Source of the DNA: a virus
Length of the DNA stretch: 26,244 bases
Reading direction: 5' to 3' (one strand)
Virus record (IMG/VR): IMGVR_UViG_3300036852_000148
Span: 1-26,244 of that record
Position numbers and translations under genes: made by a program. The number at the start of each line of letters is the position of its first letter. Positions within the stretch are counted from its first letter, which is position 1. This document shows positions 10,058-12,108 of the stretch, piece after piece. The notes under the pieces are model-generated. The model ran no database searches, had not been told where the DNA came from, and saw only the letters and a program-made list of their open reading frames with translations.

Positions 10058-10088
10058 TAGAGAGCCCCGTAACAAGGGCTCTCTATTT
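10058..10088 (+). terminator. Strong intrinsic terminator after the 9821 gene
   Basis: TAGAGAGCCC (10058-10067) pairs perfectly with GGGCTCTCTA (10076-10085), followed by TTT. The loop CGTAACAA is the same as in the terminator at 9502. Confidence 0.88.
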
Positions 10089-10093
10089 GTCCG

Positions 10094-10118
10094 TCGCAGG
10101 AAAAACAGGTGCTGTAAT
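10094..10118 (+). promoter_or_regulatory. Promoter 7, TCGC-N15-TGTAAT, driving an RNA candidate
   Basis: TCGC at 10094-10097 and TGTAAT at 10113-10118 followed by GA; 15-base spacing. No Shine-Dalgarno or credible ORF follows. The next 124 bases fold instead. Confidence 0.78.
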
Positions 10119-10242
10119 GAGAAGAGGACCCGAAAGGGTTGCCAAGACACTAATGTCCAGGTTCGAATCCTGGCTGGCGTGGCAGCACGGACCAAACAGC
10201 TGCTTAACGACAACGTTTTAGTTGGACGTTGTACCTCTTCTC
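10119..10242 (+). ncRNA. Structured RNA candidate 1, with a perfect tRNA-type T-arm
   Basis: Between promoters 7 and 8 there is no credible gene, yet nearly every segment can pair. GAGAAGAGG (10119-10127) matches CCTCTTCTC (10234-10242), 9 of 9. ACCC-GAAA-GGGT (10128-10139) is a GNRA-type tetraloop hairpin. TGCCA (10140-10144) can pair with TGGCG (10175-10179) or TGGCA (10180-10184). CCAGG-TTCGAAT-CCTGG (10157-10173) is a canonical tRNA T-arm. GCAGC (10182-10186) pairs with GCTGC (10199-10203), and ACAACG (10210-10215) with CGTTGT (10227-10232). A T-rich stretch follows (ACTTTATTTCTT). D and anticodon arms are absent, so it is not a normal tRNA; only 12 bases separate the acceptor-like strand from the T-arm. 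If transcription starts 6-7 bases after the hexamer, part of the closing helix would not be transcribed. Confidence 0.65.
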
Positions 10243-10256
10243 ACTTTATTTCTTCG

Positions 10257-10281
10257 TCGCAAGAAATACAACCCCTCTAAT
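10257..10281 (+). promoter_or_regulatory. Promoter 8, TCGC-N15-TCTAAT, driving RNA candidate 2
   Basis: TCGC at 10257-10260 and TCTAAT at 10276-10281 followed by GA; 15-base spacing. It lies 14 bases after the end of RNA candidate 1. Confidence 0.75.
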
Positions 10282-10336
10282 GAGAAGACGGTAGTAGTCT
10301 ACCCTGATCACCCTATACGGGTACGAACAGCTTCTC
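10282..10336 (+). ncRNA. Structured RNA candidate 2 or 5' leader element
   Basis: GAGAAG (10282-10287) pairs with CTTCTC (10331-10336), enclosing two perfect hairpins: GGTAG-TAGT-CTACC (10290-10303) and ACCC-TATAC-GGGT (10310-10322). TTATATTTT follows, as expected for termination. The element starts and ends with the same GAGAAG/CTTCTC pair as RNA candidate 1. The next gene starts at 10380 and has no promoter of its own, so this may be either a free RNA or a structured leader or attenuator for the 10380-12108 operon. I recognise no known RNA family. Confidence 0.6.
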
Positions 10337-11237: not shown

Positions 11238-11350
11238 TCAACGAGATATTTCAATGGTTGGCGATTCTCGGGATCGCCTTCATCGTGCTTTACCCACCGG
11301 TAAAGCAGTTCGTGCAAGACTTCAACAATGAAGACGAGGATTACGAGTGA
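11234..11350 (+). CDS. Mini membrane protein (38 aa)
   Basis: ATG 11234 overlaps the previous stop, with AGGGAAGGG upstream. The 38-residue product is one hydrophobic helix (IFQWLAILGIAFIVLYPP) and an acidic tail (DFNNEDEDYE). It overlaps the following GTG start by four bases. Its support is the conserved overlap style of the operon rather than recognised homology. Confidence 0.6.
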   Translation: MINEIFQWLAILGIAFIVLYPPVKQFVQDFNNEDEDYE

Positions 11351-12108
11351 ACCTCAAGCACATCACCAAGGACCTCGGGAAGTTCGTCACCAAGGAATCG
11401 CCTCAGATCCTCACCATCCTGGGGATTGCTGGCGCTGGCGTGACGGTCTATCTCACAGGCAAAGCAACCTGGAAGGCTGCACAGCAAATCCAGCATGAAG
11501 AAATCGTGGGAAAGGTTGAAAACGACGAGCAGTCTTTCCAACTCAACAACAAGGATCGTTTCGAGAAGGTCTGGAAACTCTACATCCCCGCTGCAGCGAC
11601 AGGGGTAATGGCCGTCGGCTGCATCGTAGCTGCAAATCGTGTCCAGGCGCGTCGATACGCTGCACTGGCCGCTGCATACGGATTGCTCTCGGGAGACTTC
11701 GACGAGTTCCGCGACAAGGCTGCCGAGCAGCTCGGATTCAAGAAGCTGGATGAAATCGACAACTCGATTGCCCGAAACAAGATCGATCGGGAGTTCATTC
11801 CGCCGGGGGCTGTTACCAATGAGGGCCTGTCGTGGTTCAAGGACAATTCTTCGGGCCGCTACTTCCTCTCAACACAGGAATCGGTTAAGAAGGCCATGAA
11901 CTTCGTGAATTTCGAGGCCAACAACCAGCGCGGTGCGTCCTTGAACACCTTTTACGACGAGCTTGGGCTCGATCCAACGGGTGTCGGACACATCCTCGGA
12001 TGGGCATCGGGAGAGGCGCTTGATGTCGTGTTCTCGCCGGTGTTGTTGGACAACGGAATGGCCGTGACGGAAATCAAGTTCAGACAGCAGCCGAAGCCGG
12101 GTTTCTAG
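11347..12108 (+). CDS. Two-TM membrane protein, DUF6353-like (copy A)
   Basis: GTG 11347 overlaps the preceding TGA; the product has 253 residues. TM1 is at about residues 20-38 (ILTILGIAGAGVTVYL) and TM2 at 78-97 (YIPAAATGVMAVGCIVAANR), separated by a charged segment. TM2 is followed by RRYAALAAAYGLLSGDFDEFRDKAAEQLG, split around residues 102-130. The C-terminal globular part contains LNTFYDELGL (about residue 199) and GHILGW (about 214-219). From memory, this architecture matches a family annotated DUF6353 in gut phages. Copy B is at 14944, and a free domain is at 10380. The C-terminal part is likely cytoplasmic. The function is unknown. Confidence 0.78.
   Translation: MNLKHITKDLGKFVTKESPQILTILGIAGAGVTVYLTGKATWKAAQQIQHEEIVGKVENDEQSFQLNNKDRFEKVWKLYIPAAATGVMAVGCIVAANRVQARRYAALAAAYGLLSGDFDEFRDKAAEQLGFKKLDEIDNSIARNKIDREFIPPGAVTNEGLSWFKDNSSGRYFLSTQESVKKAMNFVNFEANNQRGASLNTFYDELGLDPTGVGHILGWASGEALDVVFSPVLLDNGMAVTEIKFRQQPKPGF

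Follow-up and report, generated by a model that had tools for sequence, protein, structure and literature searches.

Positions 10119-10242 of the window (the whole 26,244-nucleotide stretch of viral DNA that was analysed) almost certainly hold a stand-alone RNA gene on the forward strand, for which the sequence predicts a phage-type promoter, a structured body sealed by a long helix and a U-rich tail. The structure is near certain; the function we infer. The gene is marked out by its folding energy (z = -4.8), by matches to covariance models and by covariation. The significance of the RNA lies in its conservation as a whole; the T-loop string alone is unremarkable and is not rare (GGTTCRANYCC is seen twice in the window, with 0.27 expected).

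The limits 10119-10242, which were set in a preliminary description made from the letters, are exact: the region starts and ends with a perfect 9 bp complement, GAGAAGAGG/CCTCTTCTC, and none is expected from 100 shuffles. The minimum free energy of the region is -49.9 kcal/mol compared with a shuffled mean of -33.3, and none of 200 shuffled sequences is as good. We agree with the same description that there is no credible ORF, and a coding role is excluded because homologues differ by indels of 1-2 nt. It had also proposed searches with Rfam and a tRNA finder, and an analysis of covariation in relatives. ARAGORN reports no tRNA or tmRNA gene in the region and no Rfam 15 family scores above its gathering threshold; the Rfam tRNA model gives 13 bits over 21 nt, covering the T-arm only. 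Compensatory changes are found in 32 of the 34 pairs of an alignment of 18 sequences. The claim of a new structured RNA is very strongly backed by the homologues, the covariation, the RNA's own promoter and the lack of an Rfam match.

Distribution and structure of the RNA

Outside the window, this RNA of about 125 nt, carried by viruses of soil actinobacteria, occurs in another 13 IMG/VR contigs and in 29 records of named phages (23 Gordonia, four Rhodococcus and the Arthrobacter phages Sporto and Qui), and there is no annotation on it in any of the copies inspected. A distant BLAST match (71%) lies in an unannotated intergenic region of Sporto, with promoter, closing helix, T-arm and further arms as in the window. 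Further members were found through protein neighbours, pattern scans of IMG/VR and then the covariance models R1 and R2. The IMG/VR members are contigs L006, L020, L025, L093, L089, L065, L062 and L240, with duplicates. Shorter forms are present in the complete named phages Qui, Gordonia phage Artorias and its relatives, and Rhodococcus phages ReqiPepy6 and ReqiPoco6, and there are more named members in Schwartz33, Secretariat, Fazel and Zeph. Model R2 is silent in DoctorPepper, Lewando, Shepard, Gordon, Makai, Truckee, Zeina, JEGGS and others. This silence is no proof of absence, because R2 is weak for the short group (17.7 bits for Fazel).

No copy was found in plasmids, and the single match in 297 Actinomycetes genomes is an ordinary tRNA; a host or plasmid origin was rejected on these grounds. 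Several other candidates were discarded: L124 and L147, from the first whole-genome pattern scan, are tRNA-like false positives; L071, L076, L241, L243, L260 and L261 are tRNAs or chance matches in protein-coding sequence; and H46, from phage vB_RanS_PJN03, resembles a tRNA and has a T-arm but is a different RNA. This last element (L229, 420-550) is unannotated and has a perfect T-arm and a long insertion, and is possibly an intron-bearing tRNA.

The two strands of P1 (10119-10127 and 10234-10242) pair with each other and covary across the 18 sequences of the structural alignment. P1 encloses a junction made up of P2, P3 with the T-loop hairpin, P5 and a D-like hairpin, all on the forward strand. 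P2 (10128-10139) is the hairpin ACCC-GAAA-GGGT with a GNRA loop; it covaries in 10 sequences and is missing from the Gordonia phages and Qui. P3 pairs GCCA (10141-10144) with TGGC (10175-10178) in 18/18 sequences, and all four of its pairs covary. The TGCCA/TGGCG pair that had been described as acceptor-like is real and covarying, but it is an internal helix and no acceptor stem. The T-loop hairpin CCAGG-TTCGAAT-CCTGG (10157-10173) has a stem paired in 18/18 sequences and a loop of the form UNNRANN in 17/18. P5, GGCAGC-ACGGACCAAACA-GCTGCT (10181-10204), is paired with covariation in 12/12 sequences where it is present, and its closing G-U is conserved; it was not recognised in ReqiPepy6, ReqiPoco6, Fazel, Schwartz33 and Secretariat and is short in Artorias. 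In the D-like hairpin, ACAACGT-TTTAGTTGG-ACGTTGT (10210-10232), every pair covaries and the 9 nt loop has an invariant TT.....GG (18/18).

Between P3 and the T-loop hairpin sits a mini-hairpin, AGACA-CUAA-UGU (10145-10156). Its CUAA (10150-10153) pairs with UUAG (10218-10221) in the 9 nt loop of the last hairpin, a loop-loop pseudoknot which was missed in the first reading; the 12 bases said there to stand where D and anticodon arms should be are this mini-hairpin and kissing-loop strand. The corresponding strands are UCGA/UCGA in the Sporto group, CGAA/UUCG in Fazel and UUAA/UUAA in Schwartz33. The second pair of the pseudoknot is U-A, C-G or G-C depending on the phage, and compensations occur at three of the four positions in the 18-sequence alignment; the outermost pair fails in ReqiPepy6, ReqiPoco6, Zeph and Secretariat. 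The pseudoknot may be a kissing loop, if it forms within one molecule; pairing of two molecules would give the same covariation.

The main alignment consists of 18 distinct sequences aligned by hand on structure, since MAFFT on all members misaligned the short group. In this hand-made alignment canonical pairs occupy 556 of the 566 base-pair cells; some helix positions were chosen knowing the structure, and P1 was placed by eye in Artorias, Schwartz33, Fazel, ReqiPepy6 and ReqiPoco6. All sequences pair in P3 (4 bp), in the stem of the T-loop (5 bp) and in the D-like arm (7 bp), and those with a P5 (6 bp) pair there too. None of 10,000 strand swaps matched the real pairing, either in any one helix or in the pseudoknot. 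The patterns that found L093, L089, L065 and L062 included the T-loop, TTAAC and the D-like loop, and the agreement of these members in the pattern letters is partly by construction; the stems lie outside the patterns. When the first five sequences were aligned with MAFFT, both sides had changed in 16 of the 35 pairs and 97.7% of the cells paired, a result reached by none of 500 shuffles and approached by no slid register.

Promoter, ends and neighbouring genes

The gene upstream of the RNA ends at an intrinsic terminator, AGAGAGCCC-loop-GGGCTCTCT-ATTTG (10059-10091, forward strand), which is a copy of repeated element D6 and has a near-identical copy in Qui. The promoter of the RNA gene, TTTGTCCGTCGC ... 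TGTAAT (10085-10118, forward strand, -10 box at 10113-10118), belongs to the promoter family D1-D4, whose motif TCGC ... TATAATGA is repeated through the window; the preliminary description was right to assign the RNA a phage-family promoter of its own. The same motif is found before all the inspected homologues except that of Fazel.

No base separates the -10-like box (TATAAT-like) from the 5' strand of P1. A sigma-70 start is expected about 6-7 bases downstream of the -10 box, and a normal sigma-70 promoter does not easily explain this position of P1. The start of P1 covaries (for example TAGAGGAG/CTCCTCTA in L240), and because of this the bases just after the -10-like box belong to the RNA.

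P1 is followed by a U-rich tail (ACTTTATTTC, 10243-10252, forward strand). Several relatives have a T-run at or near this place, for example CTCTTCTC-TTTTTTT in L065. A U-run is found at or near the 3' end of P1 in eight members (L065, L093, L062, L240, Secretariat, Schwartz33, Zeph and Fazel), and therefore P1 is probably, on sequence, the terminator stem. In Sporto, L020 and L025 there is a separate terminator after the RNA.

A gene for a phrog_2152-type protein lies further downstream in nine loci, and this shared gene, as judged by sequence, marks the locus as orthologous; the gene immediately downstream differs. In the window the phrog_2152-family protein is at 11347-12105. A 111-aa protein at 10380-10712 matches the same family in its C-terminal part only.

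There is a second, unrelated small RNA gene at 10257-10336 (forward strand), with a promoter TCTAAT at 10276-10281 and an RNA at 10282-10336 (z = -2.6) closed by GAGAAG...CTTCTC. L006 has a GAGAAG...CTTCTC element of different sequence in the same place. Among 160 promoter-like sites in these loci, 18 are followed by a sealed element, compared with 5-6 in controls. Sealed small-RNA candidates follow the same promoter motif in L084, L062, L089, L239, L242 and L023, and their payloads look unrelated.

The T-loop and possible functions

T-loops are a general kind of pentaloop whose gap accepts an intercalated base, and they occur widely as architectural motifs; in the tRNA elbow the T-loop pentaloop takes D-loop G18/G19, and viral tRNA-like RNAs mimic this elbow (PMC4810234). 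In the Arthrobacter-type group the T-loops have the tRNA sequence (UUCGAAU, UUCAAAU or UUCGAGU). UGAAA loops are found in L240, the Gordonia phages and ReqiPepy6, the loop of ReqiPoco6 is UACGACA, and Qui has a different hairpin there and no recognisable T-loop. By sequence, 17/18 members have the T-loop motif of a UNNRA pentaloop plus 2 nt closed by a stem, which suggests that the conserved property is the T-loop fold and not the tRNA sequence. The D-like loop ends in a GG that is placed like tRNA G18/G19 and is invariant (18/18), staying in place while its partner bases in the T-loop change without compensation. An elbow-like docking of this GG into the T-loop is plausible from the sequences.

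This anatomy suggests a mechanism. The pseudoknot would set the invariant GG of the D-like loop near the T-loop to give a compact knob resembling the tRNA elbow, and P1 with the U-run would stop transcription and shield the termini. More tentatively, the RNA could work in trans in infected cells, mimicking the elbow or serving as a decoy, and might occupy a host tRNA-binding protein or a defence factor that attacks tRNA. As a whole statement, that this is an independent phage noncoding RNA outside Rfam acting in trans as an elbow mimic or decoy is the reading we favour tentatively. Trans action is suggested by the differing immediate downstream genes and by the extra promoter that intervenes before the next gene in five loci (the window, L006, L093, L065 and Artorias). 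Six members have no promoter between the RNA and the next ORF, and a cis role is possible there. The canonical T-arm of the Arthrobacter type, the GG of the D-like loop and the adjacent sealed tRNA-like RNAs argue for mimicry. Against it, UGAAA alters the bases for the canonical G19-C56 and G18-U55 contacts while GG is unchanged, Qui is without a recognisable T-loop and P5 is missing in several members.

A tRNA-mimic role is preferred over other trans roles mainly because of these neighbouring RNAs. In ReqiPepy6 a cloverleaf annotated as tRNA-OTHER (L238, 2699-2795) lies directly upstream of the RNA; its acceptor stem runs on into a sealing helix and then a U-run, and no CCA is encoded. There is a similar sealed tRNA-like gene in ReqiPoco6 (L257, 1064-1155), with a helix followed by a U-run and CCA again not encoded. 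In Fazel (L269, 1410-1490) and Zeph (L268, 1645-1725) sealed cloverleafs adjoin the T-loop RNA, and a GAAA or GCAA tetraloop replaces the anticodon loop. These two score 42.8 and 42.6 bits, respectively, with the Rfam tRNA model, over its threshold, and neither is called by ARAGORN. The neighbouring P1-sealed tRNA-like RNAs, two of them lacking an anticodon loop, could be parts of one strategy. A broader reading is rather unlikely: that these actinobacteriophages, as a clade, have a dedicated cassette of helix-sealed tRNA mimics whose role is to decoy host proteins that bind or cleave tRNA. Such a cassette would comprise the T-loop RNA and the cloverleafs without anticodon loops, each with a dedicated promoter and its own closing helix as its end, and the open-licence papers searched describe no such class of phage anti-host RNA.

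The first reading had described a tRNA T-arm without a tRNA body, which is right for the window sequence, and had offered several roles for it. The decoy role that it offered is possible and gains circumstantial support from the sealed tRNA-like RNAs in the neighbouring genes of related phages. Recruitment of RNase P and EF-Tu was also put forward and is unsupported; the RNA has neither an acceptor nor a CCA end, its two termini being closed by a helix, and such recruitment is unlikely without an accessible acceptor end. TruB-type pseudouridine synthases accept an isolated T-arm hairpin as substrate, so members of the UUCRA group may carry a modification at position 55. The UGAAA members have no U55, which rules this out as a general feature, and mimicry that needs the exact bases of the T-arm, such as recruitment of tRNA-modifying enzymes (TruB, TrmA), fails as a general role: relatives have UGAAA or UACGA loops and Qui has neither.

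It is quite possible, though somewhat doubtful, that the RNA acts in trans in a job other than mimicry, as an antisense regulator or protein scaffold, with the T-loop as an internal tertiary module as in rRNA and riboswitches. The T-loop fold is kept in 17/18 members, some of which have loops that depart from the tRNA sequence (UGAAA, UACGA), a structural role for the T-loop hairpin follows from the loop-loop pseudoknot, and T-loops are widespread as architectural motifs (PMC4810234). This is countered by the Arthrobacter-type arm, which fits the tRNA consensus beyond what UNNRANN needs (a fit due in part to the design of the search), and by the separate tRNA-like RNAs in the same neighbourhood of relatives.

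A role as a cis leader of the next gene, like a riboswitch or attenuator in which a ligand or tRNA controls read-through of the terminator, is improbable. In Sporto, L020 and L025 a promoter does precede the RNA, which a terminator, an RBS and an ORF follow within about 50 nt, and no second promoter is present; the order is similar in L240, L089 and L062. However, the downstream genes vary among members, another promoter intervenes in about half of them, and no conserved alternative pairing was noticed between the RNA core and the terminator.

It is very improbable that the RNA is a divergent phage Y RNA of the YrlA type, in which a permuted tRNA-like module on a stem is bound by Ro60/Rsr. The parts do follow the same order within the closing stem (T-arm, helix, arm with a GG loop), and the permuted order is present in the window group. 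On the other side, RF02553 has no match at E<=10 in nine records, and a search for phage-encoded PF05731 (TROVE, Ro60/Rsr) found none in the nine records or in the five complete genomes of Sporto, Qui, Artorias, ReqiPepy6 and ReqiPoco6. Several members have lost the acceptor-like helix P5, the D-like loop takes part in the pseudoknot, and in YrlA the T-arm abuts the acceptor helix. A YrlA RNA with a Ro60 partner was rejected on the model score, the missing Ro60 and the dispensable P5. A permuted tRNA with the last hairpin as D-arm was downgraded, as the loop of that hairpin pairs with the bulge beside the T-loop hairpin. Finally, that a functionless remnant of a decayed phage tRNA has left its T-arm inside an otherwise non-tRNA body is already refuted by the strong compensatory evolution of all helices across Arthrobacter, Gordonia and Rhodococcus phages.

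If the decoy reading is true, the RNA would represent a new phage way of handling tRNA-centred host defence or control. The split between UUCRA and UGAAA loops tells imitation of tRNA sequence apart from imitation of tRNA shape.

Comparison with known RNAs

No description of the RNA was found in the open-licence papers searched for phage tRNA decoys and actinophage noncoding RNAs, which is in itself no proof of novelty. The RNA adds a well-supported structured RNA family to phage intergenic space annotated as empty, and several of the carriers are isolated phages whose laboratory hosts are non-pathogenic (Sporto, Qui, Artorias, Fazel and Zeph).

With tRNA (RF00005) the RNA shares the same 5 bp T-arm, GG-TTCGAAT-CC, identical to the tRNA consensus. 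In contrast with tRNA it has no anticodon arm and no cloverleaf with a 7 bp acceptor stem and 3' CCA site, its termini are closed, and relatives have UGAAA. The tRNA-like domain and tag ORF of a tmRNA were not found with ARAGORN or Rfam.

The nearest known RNA in the order of its parts is YrlA (RF02553), which is also found in phages (ScoobyDoobyDoo). The RNA described here differs in having a linker and P3 between the T-arm and the helix, a 7 bp D-like arm, the pseudoknot and a dispensable P5. The YrlA-like Y RNA of Mycobacterium phage ScoobyDoobyDoo (L230, 480-760), which the same Rfam library did pick up, is unannotated, scores 28.8 bits, below the Rfam threshold, and adjoins gp224, a gene for a Ro-like RNA-binding protein.

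The RNA-based prophage-origin RNA of mycobacteriophages is also a noncoding RNA of actinobacteriophages; it is parABS-proximal and required for prophage replication (PMC7157519). Compared by setting, it was rejected as a counterpart: its setting is different and no link to the RNA locus was seen. T-box RNAs, RNase P and the L1 stalk share the UNNRANN T-loop as a tertiary docking module, but their architecture is unrelated and no interdigitated T-loop pair was found here. Plant-virus tRNA-like structures of the TYMV type are viral RNAs that copy the tRNA elbow, with pseudoknots elsewhere (PMC4810234). These structures form the 3' termini of RNA genomes and can accept an amino acid, whereas here there is a separate gene of a DNA phage with no acceptor end. 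On its sequence, we file the RNA as a new family of the broad kind 'viral tRNA-like or T-loop RNA'.
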